Shown: piece after piece, positions 9,044 to 62,738 of the stretch | Layout: the number at the start of each line of letters is the position of its first letter | Numbering within the stretch: the stretch's first letter is position 1 | From: Albugo candida | Taxonomy: Eukaryota; Oomycota; Peronosporomycetes; Albuginales; Albuginaceae | DNA length: 64,000 nucleotides | NCBI GenBank assembly: GCA_905220665.1 | Contig: CAJNAR010000028.1 | Coordinates: 62,001-126,000 of the forward strand | Direction of reading: 5' to 3' | The notes under the pieces: generated by a model | Databases searched by the model: none | What the model was told of the DNA's origin: nothing | Seen by the model: the letters and a program-made list of their open reading frames with translations, nothing else | Position numbers and translations under genes: made by a program

Positions 9044-10270
9044 TCACTCATTTGCCGTTCCTTTGACAATTGAGATCGATGTCGGTGTAAGACAGTGTAT
9101 ATCTCTTTGAACAATCAAAAGAGCACCAGCTGGGCCTTGATCGGTATCATCCTGCTGCACTTTGAACACCTGCAACGTATCCGAGTCCTGGTTGGCAACG
9201 ATCACAAAGTCGTCCATGATGGAAAAGCTTCGCGGGGTTGAGCCTAAAGTGGGGTAAAAGTCAATGAGTTTCAAGTACGTGCCATCCGTAGCCTCTGCTT
9301 CGATGGTGAAAGCTGCCAGGGAATTGTGTCCACGATTGGATGCATATAGGAATCGCAGACATTTTGAGATGTGAATATCTGCACACAAATTCCCTTTGGT
9401 ATCACAAGGCACTGTTGAGATATTTTGGACGGCTTCCGTTGCAATAAGTCCCGTCACAGGATCCATTTTGTGCACTCCAATACAGCTCGAGAGTTCGTCC
9501 AAAATGAACACAAGTTTCCGTGTATTGTGAATCACAAAATGTCGCGGACCCGATCCCGTAGGACGATTTGCACGCGCATCTGACGCGTCATTGCGTATCA
9601 CATCCTCCAGAGTGTTTGTAGCAGCATGTAGTCGCAAGTGATAAATGCAGTCATTTCCGAGGTCCGCTACGTATAAAAGGTCTTTTAAACGTTGATGTGA
9701 TAGCCAGGATGTACTGTGAGGGTGTGGAGCCTCTTGTCGTTCACTGCTGGTGGAGCTATGCGCCGTGTATTCTTTGACCAACGAAGCGGGTGATAAAAGT
9801 CCATTGTCAACGGGAAAAAGCGCAATACTTCCTCCGTTGTAATTGGAGACAGTTAGAAAGCTATTGGACGCATTCATAGCCAAATGACAAGGGTGACTTC
9901 CCAACGTTGGAAACGGATGTTGAAGTTGCGTCAGAATTAAAGCAACTTCATCGAAAACGAATGTTCGAACAAAACCGGTGCGTTTTAAAGGGATAGAGAA
10001 ACGTTCAGCGTCTTTAGAAGAAAGAGAATCACTGCATTCATTGACTGCGTACAAAATGATCTTTTTCCCGTCCATTTTGAGTCGTTTTGAGATAAGAAAT
10101 GATGGATTGGGTCCGACGCATCTCGCGACGTGAACAAGCTGCAAATGAGGTGTTTGGTGGGAAGAAAAGCGGTAGCAATAGATGCCTTCTCCCTTTCCGT
10201 CAACGTGAGACTCTTTTTGCGTATAACTACCGATAAACACCCAAGAAGACGAGTCTGAAATCGGATCCAT
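9044..10270 (-). CDS. 6-phosphogluconolactonase, seven-bladed propeller (lactonase) type
   Basis: A 408-residue intronless protein of the bacterial/fungal Pgl beta-propeller family, which hydrolyses 6-phosphogluconolactone in the oxidative pentose phosphate pathway; some relatives act on other lactones. The start WVFIGSYTQKE, the internal HPCHLAM, GSGPRHFV and LYASNRGHNSLAAF, and the end FVIVANQDSDTLQVF are recurring propeller-blade signatures. The frame stays open upstream to 10459, but that part overlaps the next gene and lacks family similarity, so the ATG at 10270 is chosen; it falls just before the conserved N-terminal strand. No signal peptide is seen, so it is probably cytosolic. It lies 44 bp downstream of the stop of the SDR gene on the same strand. 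The family is confident; the substrate is inferred. Confidence 0.85.
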   Translation of the reverse strand: MDPISDSSSWVFIGSYTQKESHVDGKGEGIYCYRFSSHQTPHLQLVHVARCVGPNPSFLISKRLKMDGKKIILYAVNECSDSLSSKDAERFSIPLKRTGFVRTFVFDEVALILTQLQHPFPTLGSHPCHLAMNASNSFLTVSNYNGGSIALFPVDNGLLSPASLVKEYTAHSSTSSERQEAPHPHSTSWLSHQRLKDLLYVADLGNDCIYHLRLHAATNTLEDVIRNDASDARANRPTGSGPRHFVIHNTRKLVFILDELSSCIGVHKMDPVTGLIATEAVQNISTVPCDTKGNLCADIHISKCLRFLYASNRGHNSLAAFTIEAEATDGTYLKLIDFYPTLGSTPRSFSIMDDFVIVANQDSDTLQVFKVQQDDTDQGPAGALLIVQRDIHCLTPTSISIVKGTANE

Positions 10271-10314
10271 TTTCGAGCAGTCCCCGCTCAAAATACCGGT
10301 ATGACCGGTTTCTT

Positions 10315-11486
10315 CTATTGCGATGTACGACCACGCAATGTATCCATTCCGTCGACAGCTCCGGCGACATTGAGGATCGCATCGTACCATGAAACAGGAA
10401 ACAGACGTATCAGGAAAAATAGCCACGGATACAGCATTCCTCTCCATCCACTCGCACACGAGATCAAAAGCGAGTCACCACGAGTCATTGCGTTGAAAAT
10501 GTTGCTTGCAACTTCTTCTTTGTCCAGCATTGGAGTCAGAAATTGAGAGATCTTCTTCTTCAGTGAGTCACCCTCAAATGCACCTGCAAACATTCCCGTG
10601 TTCACTGCAATCGGACACACGAGCAGAGTACGAATGTGATCAAGTCCATCATGCTGAAGCTCCAAACGCACTAAAGCGTCAAAATGTCAGTAAACCTTGC
10701 CTGCTACCTCAAATCTCGTACAGCTTTCGTGGAGTCCAATAGAAGCGGCTTTACTGGCGCAATAATCGCTCAATTTTGCACTGGAAACGAATCCCAACTG
10801 CATGAAAGAGGTGATGTGATATATATAACTATTCGCAGGTTACGAATTCTTACAATGGAAGACACCGTCACAATCATCGCTTCTTTTGATTGTTTTAAAG
10901 AGGGTAATGCATGTTGAAGGATCCAGAATTGACCAAACACATTCACTTGAAAAGTTTGTCGAATTTTCTTGGTTGTGAGATCTTCCAGCTTGCATCCCGT
11001 GACAATCCCTAATGCCCACGCTCAGCATCGACATGTCCAATGCAGTATTCACGTACCCGCATTATTAATCACCACAGAAATTGGATGAGGAGCAACATCG
11101 CTTTTGATTTGGTCCATGCATTTGGCCACAGCGCTGAGAGAACAATTAGCGACAATAACCGCAGTGTACGACGCTCACCTTTCATCCCCAATGTCACATT
11201 GATACGTACATACTCTCACGTTCCTTCCTTCCGTTAGGCTCTTCTCGACGCGTTCCAATCCTTCTCTGTCGATATCAATCAAAACTAGAGTGATACCATC
11301 GAGTCGATCGCATAATTTGCGTGCTAAACACTGTCCCAATCCATTCGCTGCGCCCGTGATAACAATCACACGTTCATTCGGTGCGGTTCTGTTGAAGAGT
11401 TCGACACGAGAGCTCTTCCTCCGCAGCCAATAAACCGCAACTACCGTCAGAATTGTAATAAAACCAGTCGCGTAGTCAGACAACAT
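10315..11486 (-). CDS. Short-chain dehydrogenase/reductase, membrane-anchored (copy 1)
   Basis: Five exons read from the minus strand: 11486-11179, 11133-11057, 11008-10854, 10797-10722 and 10670-10315, joined by GT-AG introns of 45, 48, 56 and 51 bp; 323 residues. An N-terminal hydrophobic helix (GFITILTVVAVYWL) suggests an ER or lipid-droplet membrane anchor. The Rossmann motif TGAANGLG is at 44-51, NNAG at 126-129 and the catalytic YCASK at Tyr192/Lys196, so all active-site elements are present. The layout resembles retinol dehydrogenase/17-beta-HSD-11-like SDRs that oxidise or reduce lipid alcohols and ketones with NAD(P); the substrate is unknown. The start is the ATG at 11486; the frame runs up to a TTG at 11516, but no earlier ATG exists. 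A close paralogue lies at 13486-14707. Confidence 0.88.
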
Positions 11487-11631: not shown

Positions 11632-13269
11632 TCACGCAAGCAGACCCCAAAAAAAGGCAAAAAATGTGATTGCAAACAGCTGAGAGGCTTGTATTTGGGT
11701 GCATAATGAAGCTGGAAGGAATTCAGGGTACTGATTCGGAGTCGATGGTTCGAGTTGTTGACGATTGAAACTGGAGCGCGATACAGCAGATGGCTTGACA
11801 ACCTGTTGTTTAGCGATTTTGACTGCGCGCATAGCGTCAATGAGCCCGTGACCCAGCGCATTATTGGGGTATTCCGTCTCGGAGATGTTTCCGCAGTCGT
11901 ACCCTGAGCTTTTAAGGGATTCCGTGGTGACAGAAGTGAGTAAGAGATCAAACAGTTGCATGCTTGTGAGGTTGGGATTCGCACTTAACGCCAGAGCAGC
12001 GACGCCTGCAACATGAGGTGCAGCCATACTCGTCCCAGTCTGTGTCCCATACGCGTCGTCCGAAAATGGGAGAGCTGAAAGGATGTCGTCTCCGGGTGCA
12101 CATACGTCCGGTTTGATACGTGGTGTTCCATTTCCGCTGCTTTCAGTCGTATTTAGTGCACTGGGACCTTTGCCGCTGTACCATCCGATAGAACCGTCGA
12201 GTGTCATTGCGCCGACTGCAATCACATTTTCAAAATCGCCGGGCGCCACTGTCGATTCACACGCTGGGCCGTAATTCCCATTGGCAAAGATGGGGAAAAT
12301 ATCGGCTTCGATCCAAACGCTAATGATAGTTTTCAGAAAATCAGATGAGAGGCTTCCGCCCCAGCTATTATTTATGATATGTGGCGCTTTCGTGCAATCG
12401 GCCGAGTGAGAATTCGAGCGCATGTCTATCGGACACGTCATAAACTGAGCACATGCGAGTAGCGCGGACTCGGAGCAGTCTGTTGGCGTGCAGGCTTTAC
12501 ATGCGATCCATTGTGCACCAGGAGCGACTCCGATTCCTTCGAGTCCGACCATTATTCCGACAGTATGAGTGCCATGCCCCAAGTCGTCGTAAGGCTCTTC
12601 CAAGCCATTCACTGCATCCATCCAGCCGTATTCTTCTCGGTAGTTGGCTGCGAGAGCCTCGTGGGTCGCACGAACTCCGCTATCGATGCTACCCACGACG
12701 ACATGTTGTCCACTGACTCCAAGTTTCCACGCATCATCAGCTCCGATTCGTTTCACGCCCCATGCTCCCAGTGAATGATTGACACTATGATCGGGGTTTT
12801 GTGTGATCGGCTTCATCATTGGAATGATTCGTTCGGGTCGTATTTCAGCGACATTTGAAATATTTGCAATTTGGCTCAAAAGATCGACGGAATTGGCTTC
12901 CAATGCGACTTGATTAGTGAGCCAAAAGCTCTCAAACGATAAATTGGATGATTCATTGGCGTTCGAAAGTGTGATGTGATTGACATTCTCATTCAATACG
13001 GCTTTCACTTGTCGTTGGCGATCGATTGCATGCGAGCGAAGTCGTTGGACCACATTTTGAAGCTTATCCTCACGTGAGGTCGAACGCGTTGTCTGAAGAA
13101 CCGCTTGCTGATTCAATGAATTCATTACTGGGCGTATTCCCGACTTGAACGTTATGATCACTTTGGAGACTCCATGCTCCTGAAGCTGTCGATACACTTT
13201 TGGATGGATTTTACATTGAGCGATAGAGAGGACTGTTAGAAGACCCACGAAAAAGCGGATGGGAGACAT
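11632..13269 (-). CDS. Secreted subtilisin-like serine protease (S8)
   Basis: Intronless, 545 residues from the ATG at 13269, which gives a clean signal peptide (hydrophobic RFFVGLLTVLSIAQC); an ATG at 13305 would add 12 residues before it. A propeptide-like region (about 20-140) precedes the catalytic domain. Triad and oxyanion residues are intact: Asp196 (VVVGSIDSGV), His232 (GHGTHTVG), Asn301 (NNSWGG) and Ser414 (GTSMAAPHVAG). Several NxS/T sequons occur. The extreme C-terminus ends in a hydrophobic stretch (FAITFFAFFWGLLA), which suggests a GPI-anchor signal or membrane tether rather than free secretion; this is inference. It sits between the two paralogous SDR genes, all on the minus strand. 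Bacillopeptidase/subtilase-like enzymes are commonly secreted by oomycetes. The protease call is certain; the physiological target is unknown. Confidence 0.95.
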   Translation of the reverse strand: MSPIRFFVGLLTVLSIAQCKIHPKVYRQLQEHGVSKVIITFKSGIRPVMNSLNQQAVLQTTRSTSREDKLQNVVQRLRSHAIDRQRQVKAVLNENVNHITLSNANESSNLSFESFWLTNQVALEANSVDLLSQIANISNVAEIRPERIIPMMKPITQNPDHSVNHSLGAWGVKRIGADDAWKLGVSGQHVVVGSIDSGVRATHEALAANYREEYGWMDAVNGLEEPYDDLGHGTHTVGIMVGLEGIGVAPGAQWIACKACTPTDCSESALLACAQFMTCPIDMRSNSHSADCTKAPHIINNSWGGSLSSDFLKTIISVWIEADIFPIFANGNYGPACESTVAPGDFENVIAVGAMTLDGSIGWYSGKGPSALNTTESSGNGTPRIKPDVCAPGDDILSALPFSDDAYGTQTGTSMAAPHVAGVAALALSANPNLTSMQLFDLLLTSVTTESLKSSGYDCGNISETEYPNNALGHGLIDAMRAVKIAKQQVVKPSAVSRSSFNRQQLEPSTPNQYPEFLPASLCTQIQASQLFAITFFAFFWGLLA

Positions 13270-13485
13270 TTGACGTCGATGTAAAAATGCATGTGGCAGA
13301 GCCATCGGAAGCGAAACGAATCAAATTTGTATGAGAAACTAAATTCGACCGCTCAGAGCCGAAACCGACTCATTTCAAAAAGGAACTCGAATGAATTTTA
13401 TCGTTCCAAAAAAATAGTATCGTGCAATTAAGCTCAATTACAACACGCTCATAAAGTCGCCCAGCGCTAAAACAGCATTTCGACG

Positions 13486-41310: not shown

Positions 41311-41463
41311 TGTATCGAATCTGACAATGAGACGACAAAAAGTAGCACTGTACCCCCACATGAGAAATTGGAAGCATTTTTTGCGGCTGGAAAAAGTGGA
41401 CTGAGAAATTCGATTTGCACGTGTGCGGTCATAATTAAATTCTCTCTGATAGCAGCGGATCAA

Positions 41464-42540
41464 ATGGTTGTAGGAAATGCGATTTTCGCGCTATTTTGGT
41501 GCATATGTGTCTCAGCAAAACACGAGGAATTGTGTGCACTTGTGCCCGAATCGTATGAAAAGGCCAAACCGATGTTTCCCGACGCACGATTCGCCTTTGA
41601 TACCATGGAGACGTACACAATTGCTACGTGGTACACGGATCGTGATCCCAATAGCGATCAAGTGCTGGAAAAGCTTTTGAACAAGTGTTCATTGAGCTCG
41701 CGTATCGTTCTTGTGGTCTACGGAATACCTGGAAAAGACTGCGAGGGTCAATATTCATCGAATAGTGCTTCTGTGAAAGACGCCAAATCGTATCGCGCGT
41801 GGCTGCAGCATTTGGTGGAACGCATGGGCGAACGTAAAGTCCTTTATATCGTCGAGCCCGATGCCGTCTCACTGTCAATGGACAACAAATGCGGAGTGAT
41901 GAACCATTACGCATCTTATCTGAACACAGCGATCGAATTGCTCAGCCGCAACGAACATGCGAATGTGTACTTGGACGTTGGCTTCTGGTCGGTGTCGTCG
42001 ATAGAGAAAGCAAATCAACTCGCACAGTTCATAAGAGATATCTGTGGCGATCATAAGATATCGGGGATCGTATTGAACACATCAAATTATCGTCCAGTTG
42101 CTGAAATCGTGAATGATTGCAAGAATTTCCAAAAGGCCATGCATTCCGATACGTATCGTTGTGTGGTAGACACTTCTCGCGATATGGCGGGAGCTTCCCC
42201 CAAATCGGAATGGTGTAATTATAAGGACGCAGGGATCGGCAGCCCACCGACGGTGGAATCTCCGGACTCGTGTGTGAGCTATCTTTTGTACGTCAAAGTT
42301 CCCGGACATAGCGATGGCTTTTGCAACGATCCGAAACGAACCTCTGACGCCGCACGGGGTCCCGCTGCCGGGGAATTCAGTATGGAGCTGTTTAAGAATC
42401 TATGGAATAATGGCTACTTTGTGAAGATGAAAGGAGCAAAGCCTATTTTGGCGAGAAACGACATACGAAAGCCTGTGGCAAAGGCGCATCCCAAAGTGAA
42501 AGAGAAAGCGCTTCGAGCGGATGCGCGCGCGTATTGTTAG
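41464..42540 (+). CDS. Secreted glycoside hydrolase family 6 protein (cellulase/cellobiohydrolase type)
   Basis: Intronless, 358 residues from the ATG at 41464, which yields a clear signal peptide (MVVGNAIFALFWCICVSA). GH6 blocks are: VVYGIPGKDC with Asp92 (equivalent to the pKa-modulating Asp), VLYIVEPDAVS with Asp133 (the usual proton donor), LDVGFWS, VVDTSRDMAG and YVKVPGHSDGFC with Asp284. All carboxylates used by GH6 inverting enzymes are present. The enzyme would cleave beta-1,4-glucan in plant or its own cellulose wall. No carbohydrate-binding module; a basic, low-complexity tail (RKPVAKAHPKVKEKALRA) ends the protein. Family loops are short compared with fungal cellobiohydrolases, so an endo-acting role is possible. 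The upstream frame to 41368 lacks an ATG. Confidence 0.9.
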   Translation: MVVGNAIFALFWCICVSAKHEELCALVPESYEKAKPMFPDARFAFDTMETYTIATWYTDRDPNSDQVLEKLLNKCSLSSRIVLVVYGIPGKDCEGQYSSNSASVKDAKSYRAWLQHLVERMGERKVLYIVEPDAVSLSMDNKCGVMNHYASYLNTAIELLSRNEHANVYLDVGFWSVSSIEKANQLAQFIRDICGDHKISGIVLNTSNYRPVAEIVNDCKNFQKAMHSDTYRCVVDTSRDMAGASPKSEWCNYKDAGIGSPPTVESPDSCVSYLLYVKVPGHSDGFCNDPKRTSDAARGPAAGEFSMELFKNLWNNGYFVKMKGAKPILARNDIRKPVAKAHPKVKEKALRADARAYC

Positions 42541-61414: not shown

Positions 61415-61461
61415 TAGCGCTGATTCAAGCCTACAACTTTGTAGGCTTGAAATCAGCGCTA
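61415..61461. repeat. Long hairpin, ~20-bp arms
   Basis: Left arm 61415-61434 and right arm 61441-61461 are inverse copies except for one extra base in the right arm, with the loop AACTTT. By far the strongest simple hairpin in the window. It lies just upstream of the small ORF at 61141-61389 (minus), and could be a MITE remnant or a structured RNA element. Confidence 0.8.
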
Positions 61462-61852: not shown

Positions 61853-62738
61853 ATGTTGCGAGATGATGGCCGCAATTGCAATGAATTACGTCAGATTGCA
61901 AGCGAACAAGGAACCTTAAACCGAGCGGATGGATCTTCAAACTTATCTATTGGTGATACATCAGTTCTAGTGGCAGTCTATGGACCAGGACAAGCTAAAA
62001 TTGTCCGTAATGAACTCGTGGACAAGGCTGCCATCGATGTTTGTGTGCAAGTTAATCAAGGAATTGCAGGTAAGAGTCGAATCGATGGCATCAATCTATA
62101 GCGTGATTTTCCATCGCATCAGGTGCAAAGGAAAAGGAATTAGAGCTGATTGTTCGGAGATTGTATGAACCGATAATCGAGCGACAGGAGTTTCCTCGGA
62201 CAATGATCAGCATCGTAATCCAAATCATCGAAGACGCTGGATCGATATCTTTTTCGAAGAACTTTTCCTACGATAGACTCTGTTTCCTGAATGGGAGTTC
62301 CTTGACTATTTATCTCTGTACCTTGTTTCAACAGTGATTGATGCAGTGACAATGGCACTAATGGATGCTGGAATTGTGATGCATTGTGTTGTGACTTCTA
62401 CCACATGCTGCCTTACAAAAGATGGCTCTCTCCTATTGGATCCTTCTCAGAAAGAAGAAGCGGTATGTAGCGTTGCCCAATTCCCATCGACTATCAAGAT
62501 ACGTTTCAATTAGGATTGCACCGCGCAAGTGATCTGCGCGTGTTCTTTCCAGCTCGCGGAAGATGGTGTGCTGTTTCTTTCCAGTGAAGGTACGAAGTAG
62601 CCTTCATCGCTCGTCTGCTCTCATGTGACTTGACGTCTTTTTCTAGGACTTTTATCCGAAGAGCAATTATTCGCTTGTGCGGAAGCGTGTAAGCGGTATG
62701 CGAGCAATCACGTTTCCGGCGGGCATGATGATGACTGA
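61853..62738 (+). CDS. RRP46: Exosome complex subunit RRP46/EXOSC5
   Basis: RNase PH-fold subunit of the exosome ring (3' RNA processing and decay). Five exons: 61853-62069, 62123-62244, 62322-62462, 62514-62589 and 62647-62738; 215 residues (EXOSC5 is ~235). Landmarks are LRQIASEQGTLNRADGSS, GDTSVLVAVYGPGQAK, VCVQVNQGIAG, DAGSLVSTVIDAVTMALMDA, KDGSLLLDPSQKEE and FLSSEGLLSEEQLFACAE. Introns 1, 3 and 4 are GT-AG (53, 51 and 57 bp). Intron 2 (62245-62321) begins AT and ends AC with U12-type signals; removing it restores the exact spacing between DAGS and MAL seen in the family. As in other eukaryotes, phosphorolytic active-site residues need not be conserved. The ATG at 61853 gives the family-like start; upstream exons are not needed. 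Confidence 0.9.
62245..62321 (+). other. Probable U12-type AT-AC intron
   Basis: The 5' end is ATATCTTTT (U12 consensus ATATCCTTT, one mismatch). The branch element TTCCTTGAC at 62298-62306 fits the U12 consensus TTCCTTRAC, its branch A lies 16 nt before the 3' end, and the 3' end is TAC. 77 bp. The junction is G|AT...AC|C, between TCG and CTT codons, phase 0. The best GT-AG alternative would insert eight residues into a conserved strand. Confidence 0.8.

Follow-up and report, generated by a model that had tools for sequence, protein, structure and literature searches.

The window, i.e., the whole stretch of 64,000 nucleotides analysed here (C28:62001-126000), belongs to a 38.9 Mb assembly of Albugo candida in 196 contigs, and contains on its forward strand a five-exon gene (61853-62738) whose predicted product, of 215 residues, carries the Pfam domains PF01138 (RNase_PH) and PF03725 (RNase_PH_C). 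Human RRP46 is the top match of this product in a PDB search, followed by rice RRP46 (92.8 bits), and the 136.5 bits obtained with the human protein identify the gene, by sequence comparison, as RRP46 (EXOSC5). RRP46 is a subunit of the ring of the RNA exosome, which destroys faulty RNA. The layout of the gene is as follows:

61853..62069, + strand: RRP46 exon 1, starting at the first ATG of the frame, a further upstream exon being possible; human and rice RRP46 match in PDB
62070..62122, + strand: GT-AG intron, 53 nt
62123..62244, + strand: RRP46 exon 2, ending in ...DAGS on a codon boundary; PDB match
62245..62321, + strand: probable U12-type AT-AC intron, 77 nt, phase 0, assigned by protein fit, motif pair and PDB comparison
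62245..62253, + strand: 5' splice site ATATCTTTT, which differs from ATATCCTTT by one T for C
62298..62306, + strand: branch-site element TTCCTTGAC
62322..62462, + strand: RRP46 exon 3, beginning LVSTVIDAVTMAL; PDB match
62335..62337, + strand: TGA reached on intron retention
62463..62513, + strand: GT-AG intron, 51 nt
62514..62589, + strand: RRP46 exon 4; PDB match
62590..62646, + strand: GT-AG intron, 57 nt
62647..62738, + strand: RRP46 exon 5, including the stop codon; PDB match

The window also encodes a lactonase-type propeller protein (9044-10474), a subtilase (11632-13320) and a GH6 glycosyl hydrolase (41311-42540). Upstream of RRP46, an inverted repeat with arms of about 22 nt and a one-base slip was seen by eye at 61415-61461; a gap-free repeat search with a minimum length of 15 did not report it.

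A sequence-only reading of this DNA had proposed a U12-type AT-AC intron in RRP46, and its letters, its ends and a branch A located 16 nt before the 3' end are as claimed. The intron reads ATATCTTTTTC...GAGTTCCTTGACTATTTATCTCTGTAC, with a length of 77 nt and phase 0. Its first eight positions, ATATCTTT (62245-62252), fit the U12-type 5' splice site rule RTATCCTT with T in place of C at +6, and the rule as given in PMC2846911 allows T for one C of +5/+6. The element TTCCTTGAC at 62298-62306 lies shortly before the 3' end and is close to the branch consensus TTCCTTRAY. There is a single occurrence of this two-part motif in the window, whereas its mean number in 100 dinucleotide shuffles was 0.01, with a match in 1 of the 100. 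The same reading had held that all other introns modelled are of GT-AG type and of 41-87 bp, which holds for the three others of the RRP46 gene (53, 51 and 57 nt), the gene to which this comparison is confined.

Since the motif pair alone is weak genome-wide (16 matches vs 13 in a control), it is the reading of the exons that decides the identification. All introns of at least 30 nt, with any termini, that leave the frame open, have their start within 62150-62319 and stop short of 62400 were listed (n = 6,096). With the fit to human RRP46 as the only score, the AT-AC intron shares the top place (219) with its own 1-nt slide. As had been predicted, splicing at 62244|62322 gives DAGS|LVSTVIDAVTMAL, with no gap at the junction in the alignment with human RRP46. 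Removal of the AT-AC intron restores the conserved protein. We put at about 95% the probability that RRP46 is interrupted at 62245-62321 by a spliceosomal intron of U12 type (minor, A-type AT-AC).

As an alternative, the region could hold a conventional GT-AG intron of U2 type (62282-62334), with eight extra residues in the RRP46 of this lineage, but this is very improbable. Its GT and AG are legal and in frame, and its protein is open; the eight inserted residues, a number already given by the sequence-only reading, align to nothing, and the protein reaches 121.0 bits with human RRP46 and 77.1 with the rice protein, i.e., 15.5 and 15.7 bits less than the AT-AC product (136.5 and 92.8). On the first of these deficits this alternative was rejected, and it would, moreover, leave the U12-type motifs without explanation. 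It had been taken for the best of the GT-AG choices; however, 62297/62346 scores higher (204 vs 194), and both stay below the 219 of the AT-AC intron.

We consider it very unlikely that the same AT-AC intron is of U2 type and removed by the major spliceosome. U2-type AT-AC introns exist, 85 major AT-AC introns having been scored in human cells according to PMC8280824, but ATATCTTTT and a TTCCTTGAC branch site 16 nt before the AC are minor-type signals, and the genome contains minor snRNAs and further introns of like build. The chance that an unusual intron is mimicked by a mistake in the assembly or by degeneration of this copy of the gene is negligible: the basis is a single copy in a single assembly, but the rest of the gene, with its five exons, stays open, its three GT-AG introns are clean and neither RNase PH domain is missing, and damage would not put both U12 motifs at frame-fitting ends.

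The U12-type intron of RRP46 would have company in this genome. Genome-wide, the motif pair was found 16 times when a strict branch site was demanded, vs 13 with a reversed-pattern control, and 42 times when the branch site was relaxed and the spacing kept tight, vs 13 in the control; with eight matches in common, these represent 50 distinct places, all of which were read, and ten were modelled and searched against Pfam. TATC is preceded by A at 23 of the 50 places, by G at 11, and by C or T at 16. A Pfam family match was obtained for eight of the ten modelled introns, and these eight supported introns are all AT-AC and 68-83 nt long, their branch A lying 12-23 nt from the end. Besides that of RRP46, seven AT-AC introns of like build thus have protein support, weak in one case:

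SmD3: AT-AC intron; 110.4 bits to solved SmD3, no gap at the junction
LRR protein presumed to be U2A'-like: AT-AC intron; LRR_9 spans the junction
DEAD helicase: AT-AC intron; the match stops three residues beyond the junction (weak)
MICU1-like EF-hand protein: AT-AC intron; 34.3 bits overall, 19.8 across the junction (moderate)
GPN-loop GTPase: AT-AC intron; 86.3 bits
Enkurin: AT-AC intron; family match
Cullin: AT-AC intron; 106.9 bits to Cullin-3

Enkurin represents a flagellar-type gene in this genome; together with the GH6 enzyme, a GC content of 43-47% and the A-type minor introns, it is in keeping with an oomycete-like stramenopile. A DCN1-like AT-AC candidate (L044) is without family match, as is a candidate in a coiled-coil gene (L018:1500-1578), which has AT-AT ends, is 79 nt long and in frame, with a branch A 17 nt before its end, and is possibly an AT-AT minor intron. 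Among the 40 places outside the modelled ten, frames are open across the AT-AC at L015, L039, L043, L048 and L054. These minor-intron counts are a lower bound, with limited spacings in the patterns and 11 G-type places outside the library test; the supported minor introns of the genome are A-type without exception, and GT-AG minor introns may still exist.

The absence of all components of the minor spliceosome would, according to the sequence-only reading, have refuted the proposal; the genome shows no such absence, four minor snRNA genes or candidates having been located. U11 (64.3 bits) and U6atac (58.4 bits) exceed their Rfam cut-offs, of 39 and 33, respectively; U12 and U4atac stay below theirs and are nevertheless credible. 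U11 keeps AAAAAGGGC. U12 is represented by two copies, which score 45.3 and 44.9 bits (E about 2e-6) against a cut-off of 53; both have AGUAAGGAAA, able to pair with TTCCTTRAY, and a U-rich Sm-like site. The two copies (L002:1501-1661 and L003:1501-1661) start with GUGGCUU, the consensus start being AUGCCUU, and their flanks show some stretches alike on both sides. To judge from its letters, the GUGGCUU start should disturb the U6atac/U12 helix I.

For U4atac, an Rfam search of the genome at E <= 0.001 gave no match, and a strict pattern derived from U6atac gave 0 matches in the genome. A candidate was obtained in a lenient search only (36 bits, E = 0.0024, below the Rfam cut-off of 53), at a threshold that also gave a match in 11 of 14 control genomes. 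It can pair with the U6atac of its own genome at 16 of 17 positions of stem II and, in an alignment made by eye, at 7 of 7 positions of stem I, one of them G-U. The predicted duplex has an energy of -54.3 kcal/mol, which none of 500 shuffles reached, in a predicted fold without stem I in that form; with Rfam-consensus U6atac the value is -41.4 kcal/mol, again with 0 of 500 shuffles as low. It is this pairing with the U6atac of its own genome that makes the U4atac candidate credible.

With respect to proteins, CENATAC (CCDC84) is present as two exons (E = 1.9e-19 and 3.4e-4), both of which match the CENATAC family in Pfam. In human cells, as reported in PMC8280824, CENATAC depletion hit 92% of the minor introns of A type and 24% of those of G type. 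The proposal to look for snRNAs and for U11/U12-specific proteins was fruitful for the former; with regard to the latter, no U11/U12 di-snRNP protein came out of the single match examined, to zf-U11-48K, which is something else: the frames beside it resemble a TRM13-type methyltransferase, and it was not counted as U11-48K. A match of this kind was also found in 1 of 14 control genomes.

Taking these components together with the intron signals, it can be proposed that U11/U12 binds both the 5' splice site and the branch site, that a U4atac/U6atac.U5 tri-snRNP with CENATAC then joins, and that the intron is excised at its AC, giving DAGS|LVST. In the cell, it would thus be the minor spliceosome that removes the RRP46 AT-AC intron. 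As the sequence-only reading suggested, this may be a slow or regulated step. If it is retained, the frame runs into the TGA at 62335-62337 after 143 codons, so failed splicing would be expected to truncate RRP46, and RNA decay might drop.

The U6atac gene, at C148:614751-614860 on the - strand (L001:1501-1610), is the sole place in the genome that matches the conserved core, and has GAGCCGAGAGA in place of the Rfam consensus GAAAGGAGAGA. In register, consensus U6atac pairs with positions +4 to +8 of the 5' splice site in the ten modelled introns, whereas the U6atac of this genome, in all ten, forms pairs at +4 and +5, none at +6 and +7, and a wobble at +8. Thus, the 5' splice site of the RRP46 intron does not pair with U6atac throughout +4 to +8, +6/+7 being unpaired. 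The failure, seen in all ten introns modelled, is a change in the snRNA; the intron's own signals are present. When the register is left free, the duplex with the genome's own U6atac is also weaker than the consensus duplex in 10 of 10 introns.

If 5' splice sites had followed the odd U6atac, ATAT before a branch site might be enriched. Such an arrangement was found at 95 places vs 96 in the control, followed by CCTT in four of the 95, by GATC in four and by CGGC in none; in this weak test, with no excess over the control, there is no sign of adapted 5' splice sites. Standard U6atac/U12 helix I was absent as the best predicted duplex. A compensating pairing between the odd U6atac box and the U12 5' end (-8.0 kcal/mol) was discarded, being equalled by 33% of 500 shuffles.

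In the human studies described in PMC4980772, U6atac altered at G14/G15 is employed together with an intron altered at +5/+6, and it is for this reason that a natural change of U6atac is surprising. The good pairing with the U4atac candidate argues that the odd U6atac gene is a working copy. It could tentatively be suggested, as a reading that we hold to be possible but rather doubtful, that the lineage keeps a small minor spliceosome for mainly or only A-type (AT-AN) introns, in which the letters for reading +6/+7 are gone from the one U6atac, while U11 and U12 preserve their own. Once the spliceosome is activated, recognition would then depend on +4/+5, on U11 and on a protein such as CENATAC.

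U12-type introns in this gene have precedents. In U12DB, as described in PMC2831892, two U12 introns have U12-type orthologues in both human and Arabidopsis, and one of them is in EXOSC5; this figure is database-dependent, since by another method 20 positions common to human and Arabidopsis are counted (PMC2426677). Patients with U4atac defects have fewer correctly spliced EXOSC5 transcripts, as stated in PMC4667643. The Albugo intron resembles the human and Arabidopsis one in being in the same gene, and may or may not be the same intron. Literature searches on EXOSC5/RRP46 with U12 or minor introns, and on Albugo with U12-type introns, covering mainly non-subscription papers, did not find an oomycete RRP46 U12 intron. 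Since the human/Arabidopsis EXOSC5 U12 intron had already been published (PMC2831892), the intron of Albugo candida is a new case of a known kind.

Among other organisms, Phytophthora and Saprolegnia are similar to Albugo in that their minor introns are few and in several cases AT-AC, and in having minor snRNAs (PMC10639083 and PMC2846911). Unlike the present case, the genes for which PMC2846911 names such introns in Phytophthora are those of a peptidyl-prolyl isomerase and of ribosomal protein L31, the latter intron being GT-AG; RRP46 is absent from its text. The minor introns of Blastocystis share the AT-AC bias (196 of 253 in PMC10639083; the bias also in PMC5608401), but amount to hundreds with a median of 39 nt, in contrast with the eight supported introns of 68-83 nt described here.

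The U12-type intron proposed here would add another deep branch to those with such an intron in RRP46, human and Arabidopsis having one in the same gene, and would do so in a small genome, where every supported minor intron is A-type. Since RRP46 is part of the machinery that destroys faulty RNA, poor splicing of this intron could lower general RNA decay. If the tentative reading of the U6atac change is true, Albugo candida would depart naturally from the pairing rule derived from human U6atac mutants; and if the change is real and common to the relatives of this organism, it would put to the test the extent to which the minor spliceosome needs pairing by U6atac.
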